Source: Brevibacillus sedimenti (GTDB lineage: Bacteria > Bacillota > Bacilli > Brevibacillales > Brevibacillaceae). From it: a stretch of 64,000 bases of DNA. The stretch is taken from assembly GCF_020923495.1 (NCBI RefSeq), contig NZ_CP064048.1:1-64000 (forward strand). The letters run 5' to 3'. Positions 5,547 through 62,574 of this stretch are shown here, piece after piece; position 1 is the stretch's first letter; each line of letters starts with the position of its first letter. A program made the position numbers and the translations under genes. The notes below the pieces were generated by a model, which saw nothing but the letters and a program-made list of their open reading frames with translations, did no database searches and had not been told where the DNA came from.

Positions 5547-6917
5547 TTGGAGAGTCCGATAGGTCCGATAGGGGAGATTGTGTTGAATCTGCTGCTCGTC
5601 GGCTTTCTGGTTTTTTTGAATGCCTTTTTTGTCGCAGCAGAATTCTCGCTGGTGAAAGTGCGCCAAACCCGTCTGGCCCAACTGGCAAGCGAGGGAAACA
5701 AGCGCGCCGCCTACGCGCAAAAGGTGACCCGCCAGTTGGACGCCTATCTGTCCGCGTGTCAGCTTGGCATTACGCTGGCATCGCTGGGACTGGGGTGGGT
5801 AGGTGAACCGGCCGTCGCCCATTTTGTCGAACCCGTTTTGGTTTCTTTAAACCTGCCACAATCCCTGGCAACGCCCATATCGCTGGCGATCGCCTTTGGG
5901 TTCATTACCTTCCTGCACATTATTTTCGGGGAGCTTGCTCCCAAGTCGCTGGCGATCCAGAGAGCGGAAACTACCTCCCTCTGGACAGCAGCGCCGCTGA
6001 TGTTCTTTTACAAGCTCAGCTATCCGCTGATCTGGCTGCTGAACGGCACGGCCAACTTCTTCATCCGGCGGCTGGGCATCGAGCCCGCGGCGGAACACGA
6101 CTCCGCCCATACGGAAGAAGAGATTCGCCTGCTCGTCAACCAGAGCCATAAAAGCGGCCACATCGACCAGACCGAATTGGCACTGGTGGACAACGTCTTT
6201 GCGTTTTCCGAGCGTCTGGCCCGGGAAATCATGATCCCGCGGATTGACATGGTCTGCCTCTACGATGACAACACGTTTGAGGAGAACCTGGAAATCATGC
6301 GCCAGTCAAGACACTCCCGGTTTCCGGTGGCCCACGAGGACAAGGACCGACTGATTGGGTTTGTCCACACCTCTGATTTTTACCTGTCGGCTCTCACCTA
6401 TGGGAAAGCGGAGCTGAAGGATTTTCTCCGCCCGCTTTTAACCGTGCCGGAGTCCATGGAAATCAGCCACGTGCTGCGGCTGATGCAGAAACGCCGTTCG
6501 CAGATGGCAATCGTCATCGACGAGTACGGCGGCACCGCCGGACTGATTACCATGGAAGACATTCTGGAAGAGATTGTGGGCGACATTCAGGACGAATTTG
6601 ACGAAAACGAACGTCCCGATATTGAAAGTTCCAACAACAACGAATGGTCCGTCTCCGGGAAGATGCTGCTCTCTGAGCTGAATGACATAATCCCCGTGGA
6701 GATGCACTCCGACGAGGTAGACACGATTGCCGGCTGGCTCTACAGCCAGTTGAACGAAGATGTGGCGGAAGGCAAGTCGGTCCGCTTGCAGGACTACCTC
6801 TTCACCATCACCGAGCTGGAAAACCACCGCATCACGCGGGTGAGCATCACCTACGTGGGCGAAAACGCACCACCGACAGAGAGCGACGAGACCGTTCTTT
6901 TACCCGCACAGTCGTGA
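5547..6917 (+). CDS. CNNM/CorC (HlyC) family transporter with CBS domains, copy 1
   Basis: I place the start at TTG 5547 (AGGGGAG 7 bp upstream), giving 456 residues beginning MESPIGPIGEIVLNLLLVGF; the frame is open to 5487. Domains in order: DUF21 with four membrane segments (about 10-190), paired CBS domains (about 205-345, with IMIPRIDMVCL and MAIVIDEYGGTAGLITMEDI), and the CorC_HlyC domain to the end. The CNNM family mediates or regulates Mg2+ (or other divalent cation) export at the cytoplasmic membrane. A paralogue of similar length lies at 28608-29921, so the strain carries at least two. Start choice is uncertain; the function call is firm at family level. Confidence 0.85.
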   Translation: MESPIGPIGEIVLNLLLVGFLVFLNAFFVAAEFSLVKVRQTRLAQLASEGNKRAAYAQKVTRQLDAYLSACQLGITLASLGLGWVGEPAVAHFVEPVLVSLNLPQSLATPISLAIAFGFITFLHIIFGELAPKSLAIQRAETTSLWTAAPLMFFYKLSYPLIWLLNGTANFFIRRLGIEPAAEHDSAHTEEEIRLLVNQSHKSGHIDQTELALVDNVFAFSERLAREIMIPRIDMVCLYDDNTFEENLEIMRQSRHSRFPVAHEDKDRLIGFVHTSDFYLSALTYGKAELKDFLRPLLTVPESMEISHVLRLMQKRRSQMAIVIDEYGGTAGLITMEDILEEIVGDIQDEFDENERPDIESSNNNEWSVSGKMLLSELNDIIPVEMHSDEVDTIAGWLYSQLNEDVAEGKSVRLQDYLFTITELENHRITRVSITYVGENAPPTESDETVLLPAQS

Positions 6918-6921
6918 CGTA

Positions 6922-7280
6922 TAGACAAAGACTGAAGACAAACTGTAGGAACGATCTTTCCATCGGTGTCAAGCCGAAAGGCCCGCCCATTCATCAACCG
7001 AAGGTGGAGATAAAGTACATCGCATGGAGTGATGGGCCAAGCGAGCTCCTTTGACGACCGGCTCAGCGGAAAAACGAAGACGCGGGGATAAACAGGGGGC
7101 ACAAGTCTCACTTCAGCGAAACACCCAGATGTTTGCCCCCTGCCCGCGTCGCGTTTTGGAGCGGACTTCATCCGCTTCTTTGCTGGGCGTCAAGCGAGCG
7201 AGCGGGCCCGATCATCCATGCGCCACGGACTTTGTCTACACGCTGAAGTGTCCCCTGCCCGCAGGGGGCACTTCTTCTTT
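6922..7280 (+). repeat. Interspersed hairpin element, copy A
   Basis: Between the CNNM gene and yjcD. It opens with TAGACAAAGACTGAAGACAA and ends at CTTTGTCTACACGCTGAAG, then a GTGTCCCCTG...CAGGGGGCAC hairpin (7248-7272) with a CTTCTTCTTT tail. Nested complementary blocks include CGCATGGA (5' arm) with TCCATGCG, GGGCC with GGGCCC, and CAGGGGGCA with TGCCCCCTG. A small GCC-GAAA-GGC hairpin is at 6973-6982. Compared with copies B and D it lacks about 30 bp near the start. Copies lie at 12875, 42234 and 62190. The remaining gap to the yjcD start (7281-7401) holds nothing I recognise. Confidence 0.85.
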
Positions 7281-7401
7281 CCGGCTGCCGGCGGTACAAG
7301 ACCGACAGCCCCCGTCCCCATCATCCGATGTTACCATTCACAGGCGTGTCAGCGCGGTAAGTCTGCCGTATCACACGCCGCATTCCGTACGAGGTGTCGC
7401 C

Positions 7402-9768
7402 ATGAAAATCGCGCAGCTAGACGACCAGGTCATCCTGCTAACACCCGAGACATACCCTCGCATCCCCGCCTGGCGGCTGGCCGCTCGCCAGGGAAAAGTG
7501 CGCTGCCCCGTCTGCGGTTCGCATCTCCGCCTGATGGCGGGAATCAGTGCGGAACCCCGCTTTCTCCATCCCGCGGACAGCGATTGTGCCTGCAAAGGAA
7601 GTGACGAGGCGGTGCACGAGCGGCTGGCTGCCAGTCCCGAGCTGGCGGCCGCTGTCGCAGCTGCGGCCGATCCCGCTCCGCGTGATGCCAACCCGCGTCA
7701 GGCGAACGCCGCCACGGTGGAAGAAGAAGACGGCGAATCGGTGCGGGTCGGCTCCTTTCGCCTGCCCAAACAGCGGACGATCGGCGGCAGCAGCGTGACG
7801 CCCGCGCCAAAACCGCCGCTGTTTCGCAAACGGCTGATGCCGAAAACGCGCATCCAACACCTGGCGGAACAGCAGAACGAACCGCTTCATCCCCGCCAGC
7901 AGCAGGCTGTCACGACCACGGATGGCCCCCTTCTCATCCTGGCAGGGGCGGGCAGCGGCAAGACGCGCGTGATGACAGCCCGGACCGCCCACCTGATCCG
8001 GGACAAAGGCGTCCCTCCCCGGCAGATCATGGTGGTCACGTTTACCACCAAGGCGGCGGATGAGATCCGGCAGCGGCTGGCCCGCCAGCTTCCCCGCGAG
8101 CAGGCGCGGGAACTGATCGCCGGCACGTTTCACGGCATCTTTTACCGCATGCTGCTGTACCACCAGCCGGAACGCTGGGATCAGCGCCGCCTGCTGAAAA
8201 AAGATTGGCAAAAGTGGCGGCTGCTCAGGGAAAGCGGCCTGCTCGCCAGCCATCCCGAACTCCTGGGGCAAAAGGAACAGGACGTGCTGGACGCGTTTGG
8301 CGTGATTAGCCGCTGGAAAAACGAATACCTGCTGCCCGGCCAGTCCGTCCCGCAGGAAGCGGCAAACGACGCGGAGCGGCAGGCACACGAGCTGTACCCG
8401 CTGTACGAACAGGCGAAGCGGACGCTCGGCTGGTTTGACTTTGACGACATGTTGATCGGCTGTTACGAAATGCTGCGGGACGATGCGGAGACCCTGCGCC
8501 GCTATCAGGAGCGGATCACGCATGTGATGATCGACGAGTTTCAAGACATCAACCGCATCCAGTACGAAACCGTCAAGCTGCTCGCAGCGCCGCAAAACAA
8601 TCTGTGCGTCATCGGGGACGACGATCAGTCGATCTACGGATTTCGCGGCAGCGATCCGCAGTACATACTTGGTTTTACCCGCGATTATCCCCAGGCCCAA
8701 ACGATTACGCTGGAAGTGAACTACCGCTCCCGCTCCGCCATCGTCGGGCTGGGCTACTCATTGATCGGCCATAACCGGGCGCGCTGGAAAAAAGACTGCC
8801 TGTCGTTTCACAGCGAGGAAGGGGAAACCTATCTGTTTGAGCCGGACGACGAGGAAGAACAGGCCTCCCGGATCGTCGACGAAATCAGCCACCGGATCGA
8901 GCAGGGGACCCCTCCCGGCGAATGCGCCATCCTCTACCGCACCAGCGAGTCGGCCCGACCGATCCTGGAGCGGCTGAGCGAAGCGGGCATTCCGTTTCAC
9001 TACACGCAGGAGGAGGACTCCTTTTACCAGCGGCAGGCTGTACGCTGGACGCTGGGCTATTTGCGGCTGGCGCAGGACCCGGACGATGCAGAAGCGCTGA
9101 GGGAGATTCTCCCCACCCTCTACATCTCCCAGGAGATGTGGAACGCGGTGCGCAGCCAGGCCATACTGGAAGATCTGCCGATCCTGCACGTGCTGCCTCG
9201 CCTGCCGCAGTGGAAAGTCTACCAGCGCAAACACTTGCAAACCGTGACCGACATCCTCGCCGCCTGCCGGGAATGCCCGCCCGCCCAGGCGCTGGAGCTG
9301 ATCTACGAGGACGGCCGGCTGCGGGATTATCTGAAAAAGCGGGCCAAAGACCGGGACGACGGCAGGGAGCGCTGGAGCGACGAACTGCAGCAGCTCTTGG
9401 CCGCAGCCAGGCGGCACGCTACCGTCGCCGAGTTTTTGCACCTTGTGGAACGCATGGCAGAACAGGAAAAGGAGTGGCGCCATGCGCGGCCACTCCCAAA
9501 GGAAGGTGTTCACGTGCTCAGCATTCATCGGGCCAAAGGACTGGAATTTGACCACGTGTTCCTGCCCGATCTGGTGGAAGGCGCTCTCCCTCACGAGTAC
9601 GCGCTGGACGCCGTGCGCAAGGGAGAATCGTCCGCGCTGGAGGAAGAGCGGCGGCTCCTATACGTGGCGATCACGCGTGCCCGCCATTCGGTCGCGGTCG
9701 GCATCCCCCGCGAACGGTTCGGCCGGAAAACCAGGCCCTCCCGCTTCATCGCCGAAATGGGCGGATAG
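7402..9768 (+). CDS. yjcD: YjcD-like ATP-dependent DNA helicase, CoiA-type zinc ribbon fused to UvrD core
   Basis: ATG 7402 follows GAGGTG; the frame is open far upstream into the repeat, which I exclude. The 788-residue product starts MKIAQLDDQVILLTPETYPR. Residues about 20-75 hold CPVCG...FLHPADSDCACK...H, the pattern of the CoiA N-terminal zinc ribbon. A linker leads to a superfamily 1A UvrD/PcrA helicase from about residue 160: GAGSGKT (Walker A), FTTKAADEIRQR (Ia), IDEFQDIN (II), GDDDQSIYGFRG (III), EVNYRS (IV), VLSIHRAKGLEFDHVFLPDL (V) and LLYVAITRAR (VI). It unwinds DNA 3'-5' with ATP and probably acts in repair or recombination. YjcD of B. subtilis sits near yjcF-H as here. Confidence 0.85.
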   Translation: MKIAQLDDQVILLTPETYPRIPAWRLAARQGKVRCPVCGSHLRLMAGISAEPRFLHPADSDCACKGSDEAVHERLAASPELAAAVAAAADPAPRDANPRQANAATVEEEDGESVRVGSFRLPKQRTIGGSSVTPAPKPPLFRKRLMPKTRIQHLAEQQNEPLHPRQQQAVTTTDGPLLILAGAGSGKTRVMTARTAHLIRDKGVPPRQIMVVTFTTKAADEIRQRLARQLPREQARELIAGTFHGIFYRMLLYHQPERWDQRRLLKKDWQKWRLLRESGLLASHPELLGQKEQDVLDAFGVISRWKNEYLLPGQSVPQEAANDAERQAHELYPLYEQAKRTLGWFDFDDMLIGCYEMLRDDAETLRRYQERITHVMIDEFQDINRIQYETVKLLAAPQNNLCVIGDDDQSIYGFRGSDPQYILGFTRDYPQAQTITLEVNYRSRSAIVGLGYSLIGHNRARWKKDCLSFHSEEGETYLFEPDDEEEQASRIVDEISHRIEQGTPPGECAILYRTSESARPILERLSEAGIPFHYTQEEDSFYQRQAVRWTLGYLRLAQDPDDAEALREILPTLYISQEMWNAVRSQAILEDLPILHVLPRLPQWKVYQRKHLQTVTDILAACRECPPAQALELIYEDGRLRDYLKKRAKDRDDGRERWSDELQQLLAAARRHATVAEFLHLVERMAEQEKEWRHARPLPKEGVHVLSIHRAKGLEFDHVFLPDLVEGALPHEYALDAVRKGESSALEEERRLLYVAITRARHSVAVGIPRERFGRKTRPSRFIAEMGG

Positions 9769-12763: not shown

Positions 12764-12874
12764 CTGCATGCCCTGCCGTACTGTGTCGTATTCGGCATGA
12801 CGGCAAAGGCAGACAGAGCGAATCTCCAGACTGGACAAGCCTGCCGTCCTCTGCGTTTCCGGGAAAGCCAACAA

Positions 12875-13258
12875 GCTGAGACACAAGGGTCTCAGGTCAG
12901 CATGCAGACAAAGTTCGTGGCACATGGGTGCTCGGGCCCGCTCGCTCTCTTGACGACCAGCAAAGAAGTGGATGATGTCCGCTCCAAAACGCGACGCGGG
13001 CAGGGGGCAAACATCTGGGGGTTTCGACGAAGTGAGACTTGTGCCCCCTGTTTTTCCCCGCGTCTAGCGTTTTTCCGCTGAGCCGGTCGTCAAAGGAGCT
13101 CGCTTGGCCCATCACTCCATGACAAGTAATTTGTCTTCAGCTTTGGTTAATGAATGTGCAGGCCTTTCGGCCTGGAAACGATGGAAGATCGTTTCCTTGT
13201 GAACACTTACCAGATAAATAGTTTGTTTTCAGTCAGATGCTGAGACCCTTGTCTCAGC
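12875..13258 (-). repeat. Interspersed hairpin element, copy B
   Basis: Read on the minus strand it begins with a GCTGAGAC...GTCTCAGC hairpin (13239-13258), then ACTGAAAACAAACT, GGAAACGAT/ATCGTTTCC (13174-13196), the AGGCC-GAAA-GGCCT hairpin (13160-13173), the long stem, and finally AACTTTGTCTGCATGCTGA followed by CTGAGACCCTTGTGTCTCAG (12875-12895). The two terminal hairpins are the same sequence in inverted arrangement. It is the fullest copy. The frame from 13115 down to 12897 is open but not credible as a gene (see rejected items). Confidence 0.85.
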
Positions 13259-28607: not shown

Positions 28608-29921
28608 TTACGCTTGTTGCCCCGCTTCCTTCGTTCCTCTTTTTACCCATACACGGGTGATTCGGTAATGGTCCACCTCGCCGACGATGAATTCGTAGCC
28701 GCCGTCTCTGACCACGTCGCCCACGCGCGGCGGATGGTCGATCTGCATGTAGATCCAGCCGGCCAGCGTGTCCACCTCACTGTCGTCCAGATCAAGCCCG
28801 AGGTAGTCGTTTACCTCTTCCAGCAGCATGCGGCCGTCCAGCGACAGCAGGTCGTCTTTCCGCTCGATTTCCGGCCGCTCGTCGTCAAATTCATCCTGAA
28901 TGTCGCCGACAATTTCTTCCATTATGTCTTCCACTGTAACCAGACCTGCCGTTCCGCCGTACTCGTCGATGATAATCGCCATCTGGCTGCGCTGTTTTTG
29001 CAGCATGGTCAAAAGCCGGCTGATGGATATCGTCTCCGGAACGGTCAGCACTGGGCGGCTCAACTGCTCCAGGCTTTTTTGCTCCCCTTCCAGCAGGCTG
29101 GTCAACAAATCCTTGATATGCAAACTGCCGACCACGTGGTCCTTGTCCCCGTCCACCACCGGGTAGCGGGTAAAGCGGCCGTTTTGCACGACCTTGATGT
29201 TATCTTCTAACGGGTCGCGCAGGTTGAGCACCACCATGTCCGTGCGCGGCACCATGATCTCCCGGGCCATTGTCTCCGAAAAATCAAAGATATTGTCCAC
29301 CAGCATCAGCTCGGTCTGGTCGATCAGGCCGCTTTTGTGGCTCTCGTTGACAAGGATGCGGATTTCTTCTTCCGTGTGCGCTTCCTGATGCGGTTCCATG
29401 CTAATGCCGAGCATCCTGAGAATCTTGGCCGCCGCCCAGTTGAGAAAGGCGATAAACGGGTACATCAGCTTGTAAAACATCCGGATGGGACGGGCCACGA
29501 ACATCGAGACCTTCTCGGAGCGCTGGATGGCCAGCGATTTTGGCGCCAGCTCGCCCAGCACGATGTGCAAAAAAGTAATGATGGAGAACGCGACGATAAA
29601 GGAGATGCTGCCGACCAGCGTCTCGTTCAGCCCAAAGTAGCGGAAGACAGGGTGGAGCAGATGGGCGACGGCCGGTTCCCCCAGCCAGCCCAGTCCGAGC
29701 GACGCCAGCGTGATCCCCAGCTGGGTGGCGGACAGGTAGGCATCCAGGTTGTCCAGCACCAGTTCGACGTCGCCCGCCCGCCTGTTTCCTTCCGCTACCA
29801 GTTGGGCGATGCGCGATTCCCTCACCTTCACGATGGCAAATTCGGTCGCCACGAAAAAGCCGTTGAGAAAGACGAGAAATGCGACCAGGACCAGATTGAA
29901 AAAGGCACTCCATATCGCCAT
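28608..29921 (-). CDS. CNNM/CorC (HlyC) family transporter with CBS domains, copy 2
   Basis: ATG 29919-29921 gives 437 residues, MAIWSAFFNLVLVAFLVFLN. Same layout as 5547-6917: DUF21 membrane part, two CBS domains (EIMVPRTDMVVLNLRDP, MAIIIDEYGGTAGLVTVEDI), C-terminal CorC_HlyC domain. About 50-60 percent of residues look the same, so the two genes are ancient paralogues. Probably Mg2+ or other divalent cation homeostasis. Convergent orientation to no other gene here; its 3' end abuts the SBP2 promoter. Confidence 0.85.
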   Translation of the reverse strand: MAIWSAFFNLVLVAFLVFLNGFFVATEFAIVKVRESRIAQLVAEGNRRAGDVELVLDNLDAYLSATQLGITLASLGLGWLGEPAVAHLLHPVFRYFGLNETLVGSISFIVAFSIITFLHIVLGELAPKSLAIQRSEKVSMFVARPIRMFYKLMYPFIAFLNWAAAKILRMLGISMEPHQEAHTEEEIRILVNESHKSGLIDQTELMLVDNIFDFSETMAREIMVPRTDMVVLNLRDPLEDNIKVVQNGRFTRYPVVDGDKDHVVGSLHIKDLLTSLLEGEQKSLEQLSRPVLTVPETISISRLLTMLQKQRSQMAIIIDEYGGTAGLVTVEDIMEEIVGDIQDEFDDERPEIERKDDLLSLDGRMLLEEVNDYLGLDLDDSEVDTLAGWIYMQIDHPPRVGDVVRDGGYEFIVGEVDHYRITRVWVKRGTKEAGQQA

Positions 29922-42233: not shown

Positions 42234-42503
42234 CTCCTTCACGAAGAAGGGGTGCAGAGTGAAGACAAGCTGTTCTTTTTTATCATTAAAGGTTCCACAT
42301 CGTAAGATTTTCCCATCGTAACCAGGCCCCAGGCCGGTGGCCTGCACATTCATCAACCAAATTTGTTTGCCCCCTGCCCGCGTCGCGTTTTGGAGCGGAC
42401 AATATCCACTTCTTTGCTGGTCGTCAAGAGAGCGAGCGGGCACCATCACACATGACACCTCGGACTTTGTCTGCAAATTGAAACCCCTTCACGAAGAAGG
42501 GGT
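42234..42503 (+). repeat. Interspersed hairpin element, copy C (internally deleted)
   Basis: Flanked by two copies of CTCCTTC/CCCCTTC-ACGAA-GAAGGGG (42234-42252 and 42484-42502). Body starts AGAGTGAAGACAAGCTG, includes the AGGCC-GGT-GGCCT hairpin near 42330, CATTCATCAACC, then jumps to TTTGTTTGCCCCCTGCCCGC and on to GGACTTTGTCTGCAAATTG. About 150 bp that hold the 5' arm of the long stem in the other copies are missing, so the long hairpin cannot form. Bounded by the 42169 gene and the 42489-42803 gene. Confidence 0.85.
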
Positions 42504-42803
42504 CGGGGGATTGTTAACGTTTTTTTGGTTCATGAACTCCGCCAGCCAAGCACGCCGGACTTCTTTATTGGGACAAAAGGCGAGGACATAGCTCTCACCG
42601 CGCATGTACTTTTCCTTGATCCACTCTTTATGTTTCCGGAAAAACGCCTGCTGAAAGTCGGGCGGCATTTGATGATACTCTTCCAAAGCTGAGGGGTTCT
42701 GGAGGAAAAAATCTTCATCATAAATGATTTCTTCGTTTTGTTGGCGGCTGATAATGTATACGAACGCGATCACCAGAAACAGGTTGACTAAAAAAATCGT
42801 CAT
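42489..42803 (-). CDS. Hypothetical small membrane-anchored protein
   Basis: ATG 42801-42803 gives 104 residues, MTIFLVNLFLVIAFVYIISR; one N-terminal hydrophobic anchor, then a hydrophilic helical part (DEDFFLQNPSALEEYHQMPP, FFRKHKEWIKEKYMRGESYV). The last residues TPSS and the stop codon are encoded by the right-hand hairpin of repeat C, so the C-terminus was altered by the element or the element uses this gene's terminator. Unknown function. Confidence 0.5.
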   Translation of the reverse strand: MTIFLVNLFLVIAFVYIISRQQNEEIIYDEDFFLQNPSALEEYHQMPPDFQQAFFRKHKEWIKEKYMRGESYVLAFCPNKEVRRAWLAEFMNQKNVNNPPTPSS

Positions 42804-62189: not shown

Positions 62190-62574
62190 AGCTGCCAATA
62201 ATGGCAGCTACAGACTGAAGACAAACTGTTTATTTAGTAAGTGTCCACAAGGAAGTAATTTTCATGTTTTCCAGGCCGGAAGGCCTGCACATTCATCAAC
62301 CGAAGCTGAAGACAACGTACATCGCATGGAGGGATGGGCCAAGCGAGCTCCTTTGACGACCTGCTCAGCGGAAAAACGAAAGACGCGGGGAAAAACAGGG
62401 GGCACAAGTCTCACTTCGCCGAAACACCCAGATGTTTGCCCCCTGCCCGCGTCGCGTTTTGGAGCGGACATCATCCACTTCTTTGCTGGGCGTCAAGAGA
62501 GCGAGCGGGCCCGATCTCCCATGCGCCACGGACTTTGTCTACATGCTGAAACCCCCTCGTTTGACGAAGGGGTT
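62190..62574 (+). repeat. Interspersed hairpin element, copy D
   Basis: Preceded by the AGCTGCC-AATAAT-GGCAGCT hairpin (62190-62209). Body: ACTGAAGACAAACTG, AGGCC-GGAA-GGCCT hairpin (62273-62286), CATTCATCAACC, GCTGAAGACAACG, the long stem, GGACTTTGTCTACATGCTGA, then AACCCC-TCGT-ACGA-GGGGTT hairpin (62550-62573). It sits between the 61665 gene and tpx. The right hairpin probably acts as tpx terminator in the minus direction. Confidence 0.85.

Follow-up and report, generated by a model that had tools for sequence, protein, structure and literature searches.

Is a strongly folding, GNRA-capped repeat that recurs in a bacterial genome a structured RNA, or is it a mobile element whose interior happens to fold? 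We addressed this question in the first 64,000 nucleotides of the Brevibacillus sedimenti contig (hereafter the window, meaning the whole stretch of DNA that was analysed). The original prediction placed a repeat at 12896-13235, with further copies elsewhere in the window and a compact hairpin in each of them, and took these features to suggest a structured RNA.

Copies in the window and across the genome

By combining BLAST, an alignment of full-length copies and searches for the end motifs, we confirmed four copies in the window, with the copy at the predicted locus running from 12898 to 13236 on the minus strand. The hairpins flanking copies A and B and the one to the left of copy D were read from the sequence. 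The features are as follows.

12898..13236, minus strand: copy A, a full-length MITE; the site is unoccupied in the sister species
12874..12895: flank at the 3' end of copy A, terminator hairpin duplicate CTGAGAC-ACAAGG-GTCTCAG; a single hairpin lies at the orthologous site of the sister species
13239..13258: flank at the 5' end of copy A, terminator hairpin duplicate with a T-tract after it and a loop inverted with respect to that of the hairpin at 12874..12895
13159..13174, minus strand: internal hairpin of copy A, CAGGCC-GAAA-GGCCTG, with a GNRA loop
6928..7245, plus strand: copy B, a MITE with a short deletion near its 5' end and a hairpin on the right side only
7246..7273: right flank of copy B, terminator hairpin AAGTGTCCCCTGCCCGCAGGGGGCACTT
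42255..42480, plus strand: copy C, a MITE from which the 5' half of the long stem is missing; GGT as internal loop
42231..42254: left flank of copy C, hairpin duplication AAACTCCTTCACGAAGAAGGGGTG
42481..42504: right flank of copy C, hairpin duplication AAACCCCTTCACGAAGAAGGGGTC
62211..62548, plus strand: copy D, a full-length MITE
62190..62209: left flank of copy D, hairpin AGCTGCCAATAATGGCAGCT, unlike the right-hand hairpin
62550..62574: right flank of copy D, terminator hairpin; a single related hairpin lies at the orthologous position of the sister species
62272..62287, plus strand: internal hairpin of copy D, CAGGCC-GGAA-GGCCTG
62306..62315, plus strand: inner CTGAAGACAA of copy D, unconserved between copies (4 of 40 exact)

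All four of the internal hairpins described in the original prediction were seen, although the labels of copies A and B had apparently been swapped: the hairpin of copy B is GCC-GAAA-GGC, and the GGT loop of 3 nt belongs to copy C, which is truncated. The window also holds inverted repeat pairs at 5583-6604 and 28882-29900 (70-74% complementarity), probably paralogous genes.

The B. sedimenti genome comprises 3.93 Mb in one contig, in which BLAST lists 43 matches to the repeat of ~338 bp. A 14-bp core motif, with one mismatch allowed, occurs at 67 sites (35 forward and 32 reverse) versus 4 for a reversed-pattern control, and the right end of the element is found at 69 sites with no more than two mismatches; we put the copy number at about 70-90. 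Full-length copies span 318-345 bp, and shorter ones are present. The termini CAGACTGAAGACAAAC ... ACTTTGTCTACACGCTG form an imperfect terminal inverted repeat (CAGnnTGnAGACAAA), with the ends CAG...CTG, and no transposase gene lies inside. Being short, present in many copies, devoid of a transposase gene, and provided with terminal inverted repeats and a target duplication, the repeat has the properties of a MITE. In some places two or three elements form tandem arrays spaced by one identical hairpin (656313-657346 and 891130-891830). No similar DNA was found in plasmid and phage collections.

A second MITE family of 253-304 bp has the same ends as the ~338-bp family, another interior that also folds strongly, and terminator hairpins on both sides of most copies. 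Its copies lie at the following contig positions.

646045-646298, 1719952-1720205, 1732443-1732746, 2294799-2295051, 1685691-1685990 and 2640622-2640921: second MITE family

Several further observations concern the contig as a whole. Its end (3928637-3931259) repeats window positions 5654-8280 with 99.5% identity and 14 gap positions, so that the circular chromosome is seemingly untrimmed and copy B enters the counts twice. The distribution of right ends is uneven: the first half of the contig holds 51 and the second 18 (p = 9e-5). To the left of both the element at 891130 and that at 992575 lies the same TACAAAATGGGGTCTTGACC stretch, which may be the terminus of some other repeat or insertion sequence. 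Finally, we rejected a candidate element of 8.7 kb bounded by ends at 512793 and 521494, since the hairpins on its two sides differ.

Terminator hairpins at the element ends

Almost all copies stand between two duplicates of a terminator hairpin. The direct repeats outside the MITE ends measure 18-38 bp (median 26), have a locus-specific sequence and constitute complete rho-independent terminator stem-loops; an A-tract often precedes the left hairpin, or a T-tract follows the right one. For 47 end-paired elements, a set that includes the second-family MITEs and, owing to the contig-end overlap, one locus twice, a duplication score of at least 12 was reached by 36, compared with 0 of 5000 random flank pairs. 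The best repeat was at least 15 bp long in 40 of the 47, three of these 40 having 7-9 mismatches. The duplicated segments have a mean fold energy of -15.1 kcal/mol versus -4.1 kcal/mol when shuffled, and the length of the duplication follows that of the hairpin closely (r = 0.94, n = 33). Insertion takes place at palindromic or hairpin targets, as in some IS1182 members. Within the window there is evidence to the contrary, with copies B and D lacking matching hairpins on both sides and the hairpin loops of copy A being inverted.

Two of these loci are peculiar in their own right. The hairpins on the two sides of copy A have loops in opposite orientation, as though one hairpin had been turned round after the element entered, and the two unlike hairpins of copy D may perhaps have arisen by recombination between two copies.

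Orthologous loci in the sister species show what a site looks like when it is empty. Both the site of the element at 1157227-1157564 and that of copy A, where the sequence is CAAAAAGCTGAGACGAGGGTCTCAGCTTTTTTGG, carry one hairpin and no element; at the copy D locus the right flank alone aligns, again with one related hairpin. The single hairpin at empty sites indicates that the hairpin is the target and is duplicated on insertion. An insertion of the IS1272 type, in which the target hairpin is deleted and no target duplication arises, does not describe these sites: here the whole hairpin is duplicated, and one hairpin stands at the empty sites.

The same loci bear on the possibility that the flanking hairpins are part of the element itself, which would then be a terminator-carrying repeat. 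SPRITE and BOX of Streptococcus pneumoniae are likewise short intergenic repeats tied to terminator-like structures (PMC10969869, PMC3049150); in SPRITE, however, the terminator-like structure lies within the repeat, whereas here it belongs to the target site. The presence of hairpins on both sides of nearly all copies is what such a repeat would display, but the hairpins agree only across the two sides of a given locus and differ from locus to locus, and the sister species has the locus-specific hairpin without the element. We regard this explanation, which the empty sites contradict, as very improbable.

The position of the elements relative to host genes fits with a terminator target. Judged by a codon-usage heuristic, the 3' end of a gene faces 46 of the 47 elements (22 antisense, 13 sense and 11 convergent). 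Each side of an inserted element retains a hairpin, adjoining the outer A- or T-tract; transcription would therefore probably still terminate, with the element now part of the 3' untranslated region. The inner side of a hairpin now meets the element end and not a T-tract, and transcripts may therefore run through to the outer hairpin.

Internal fold and the case for a structured RNA

We next consider the interior, using an alignment of 40 full-length genomic copies and a FastTree phylogeny. Far from being lost in most copies elsewhere, the compact hairpin CAGGCC-GNAA-GGCCTG, with its 6-bp stem, is retained in 40 of 40 full-length copies, and its stem is 98.3% paired. The loop is GAAA in 27 copies, GGAA in 10 and GCAA in 3, always GNRA; on the tree, 8 changes fall on the loop N and none on the rest of the loop, with 5 changes spread over the twelve stem positions. 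The predicted GNRA hairpin with a varying loop base is thereby upheld, with 3-nt loops seen in some older or truncated copies (240612, 2514944 and 42331). The 16-column hairpin segment is not exceptionally conserved, because the other stems of the element are equally conserved (45 of 158 windows of the element change as little or less). The GNAA pattern may also reflect a stable single-stranded DNA hairpin.

The element as a whole folds strongly. The plus strand of copy D reaches -136.7 kcal/mol versus -103.6 kcal/mol for shuffles (z = -6.0) and the minus strand -132.9 versus -109.0 kcal/mol (z = -4.2). Paired columns change less than unpaired ones (0.72 versus 2.02 changes per column, p = 3e-4), indicating that the secondary structure is constrained. 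Covariation, which the original prediction had named as one check on at least 20 copies, is thin among the 40: double changes affect 2 of 69 pairs, no excess over shuffled columns, and one of the two is an A-U to G-C split between subfamilies. Counted as cells, double changes number 33 versus 16, but these are inherited within subfamilies. An RNA role for the plus strand would predict more G.U than A.C departures. Single-sided departures amount to 20 G.U versus 12 A.C cells (p = 0.22), or 15 versus 12 pairs; G.U is not significantly favoured, and neither strand is therefore singled out as RNA.

The prediction had further proposed two alternative closings of the long stem, in which the single 3' TTTGTCT could pair with either of two motif copies. 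In copy D, CTGAAGACAA does occur twice in the 5' half (62215 and 62306), each time only a few bases from where it had been placed, and the window contains 4 exact hits versus 0.10 expected. The outer motif, which is the terminal inverted repeat of the MITE, has the 3' end as its pairing partner. Of the 40 copies, just 4 carry the inner CTGAAGACAA exactly and 15 carry GAAGACAA, and because the inner motif is unconserved we reject the alternative pairings.

Could the repeat nevertheless be a structured non-coding RNA, or a cis-acting RNA of 3' untranslated regions, selected for its fold and only incidentally repeated? The strong fold, the slower change of its paired columns and the invariable GNAA pattern would all suit such an RNA, as would a location downstream of genes, where the element is probably transcribed. 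Against it, the double-changed pairs are as few as shuffling predicts, the wobble asymmetry between strands is not significant, and copies lie in both orientations relative to host genes, which argues against a strand-specific role. Rfam models, group II introns included, gave no match at gathering scores, and permissive thresholds yielded chance-level weak hits only, mostly to human long non-coding RNAs. Furthermore, the second MITE family, with identical ends, has a different strong fold, so that strong folding is common to both families. We therefore consider an RNA of this kind unlikely. What holds of the original reading is a fold that is strong and constrained; given the thin covariation, the lack of a strand-specific signature and the mixed orientation, RNA function is unproven. 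Most likely, the internal foldback with its GNAA hairpin is kept because it serves transposition or stability, and not because it acts as a host RNA.

IS1182 relatives and a possible route to hairpin duplication

No intact IS1182 transposase was found in the B. sedimenti genome, including by a DUF772 search. The sole IS1182-type transposase detected is a broken relic, a DDE_Tnp_1_6 (PF13751) fragment at 1369199-1369679 that an IS21-like insertion has cut off from its remainder; the relic terminates in CAGATTGAAGACAAAC, adjoining a terminator hairpin. Relatives of this relic are found in full-size elements of Bacillus, Peribacillus, Lysinibacillus, Thermoanaerobacter, Clostridium and others, and the transposases of four of them score 474-490 bits on the IS1182 model NF033551, against a cut-off of 270 bits. 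The MITE ends CAGACTGAAGACAAAC and, as reverse complement, CAGCGTGTAGACAAAG match the ends of these relatives, for example CAGACTGAAGACAAAG and CAGCTTGTAGACAAAG.

The full-size elements share the insertion pattern of the MITEs. Exact flanking repeats of 18-42 bp were present at 35 of 53 testable full-size IS1182-family loci in other Firmicutes; at the other 18, exact duplication of at least 15 bp was absent, some of these having shorter repeats or lying at contig ends. All 35 repeats are more stable than when shuffled, the stem comes within 2 nt of both ends in 34, and the length of the duplication again tracks that of the hairpin (r = 0.96). Ten of the loci are in Bacillus sp. OV166, where one 1738-bp element sits in a different terminator each time.

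Group IIC introns also insert next to terminators. A remnant of a mobile group IIC intron would accordingly share the terminator preference and the structured interior, yet introns do not make terminal inverted repeats or target duplications, the ends match IS1182 elements, and no group II intron model of Rfam was matched; this origin is scarcely credible. Taken together, these results indicate that the repeat is very probably a non-autonomous MITE mobilised by the transposase of a hairpin-targeting IS1182 branch, and not primarily a structured RNA gene. Because no intact transposase is present, we infer this mobilisation from the ends and the target, and with a broken relic as the only IS1182-type transposase the MITE may now be immobile.

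The IS1182 family (NF033551) resembles the branch described here in its transposase, its inverted-repeat ends and its palindromic targets. The family is described as heterogeneous: palindromes are the targets of some members (Siguier et al. 2015, cited in PMC5678879 and PMC4923244), and insertion occurs with or without target duplication (PMC12056078). In Staphylococcus, IS1272 and TnSha1 likewise encode an IS1182-family transposase and choose inverted-repeat or terminator-hairpin targets by structure, with no sequence preference (PMC5678879, PMC4923244), and Furi et al. (PMC4923244) showed that terminator hairpins are targeted and deleted. IS1272 deletes or replaces the hairpin without target duplication (PMC5678879, PMC4923244), whereas the elements studied here duplicate it whole. 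Unlike IS1182 as described, this branch and its MITEs consistently duplicate stem-loops of 18-42 bp, and we found no documented case of a hairpin-duplicating insertion sequence in the literature searched, in which Siguier et al. 2015 was represented through citing papers. Compared with the prokaryotic MITEs Correia, RUP, QMITE and Chunjie (PMC10969869), the element is similarly short, non-coding, intergenic and abundant, with terminal inverted repeats and a foldback interior; unlike the MITEs reviewed there, its target is a terminator hairpin and its duplication has the length of that hairpin.

How might such duplications arise? The MITE inserts into terminator stem-loops of unrelated sequence and copies the whole hairpin to both sides. 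Since the length of the duplication tracks that of the hairpin, the two feet of the stem-loop probably determine where joining takes place. Wan et al. 2017 (PMC5678879) demonstrated that IS1272 deletes its target stem-loop, and in their model duplication by attack at the 5' feet is drawn as an alternative; our elements fit that alternative. We infer the chemistry of joining, including the cleavage positions and a cruciform intermediate, from this pattern. More tentatively, the branch may gauge its target by shape, sensing both feet of an extruded stem-loop, with a staggered joining equal to the hairpin length that would give the variable duplications; the GNAA-capped foldback of the MITE might then be the folded nucleic acid read by that enzyme or by an RNA-binding partner.

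Most DDE transposases produce a target duplication of short, fixed length. Here the duplication ranges over 18-42 bp in step with the length of the target hairpin, which would be difficult to account for if the folded structure were not recognised. These elements fill in the second outcome of the published model, of which the deleting outcome alone had been shown before, and they supply a large natural data set for testing it, with dozens of MITE copies and 35 insertion sequence copies. In the host, this mode of insertion brings the element into the 3' untranslated regions of many genes; by settling in terminators and keeping a hairpin on either side, it would spread with almost no harm.
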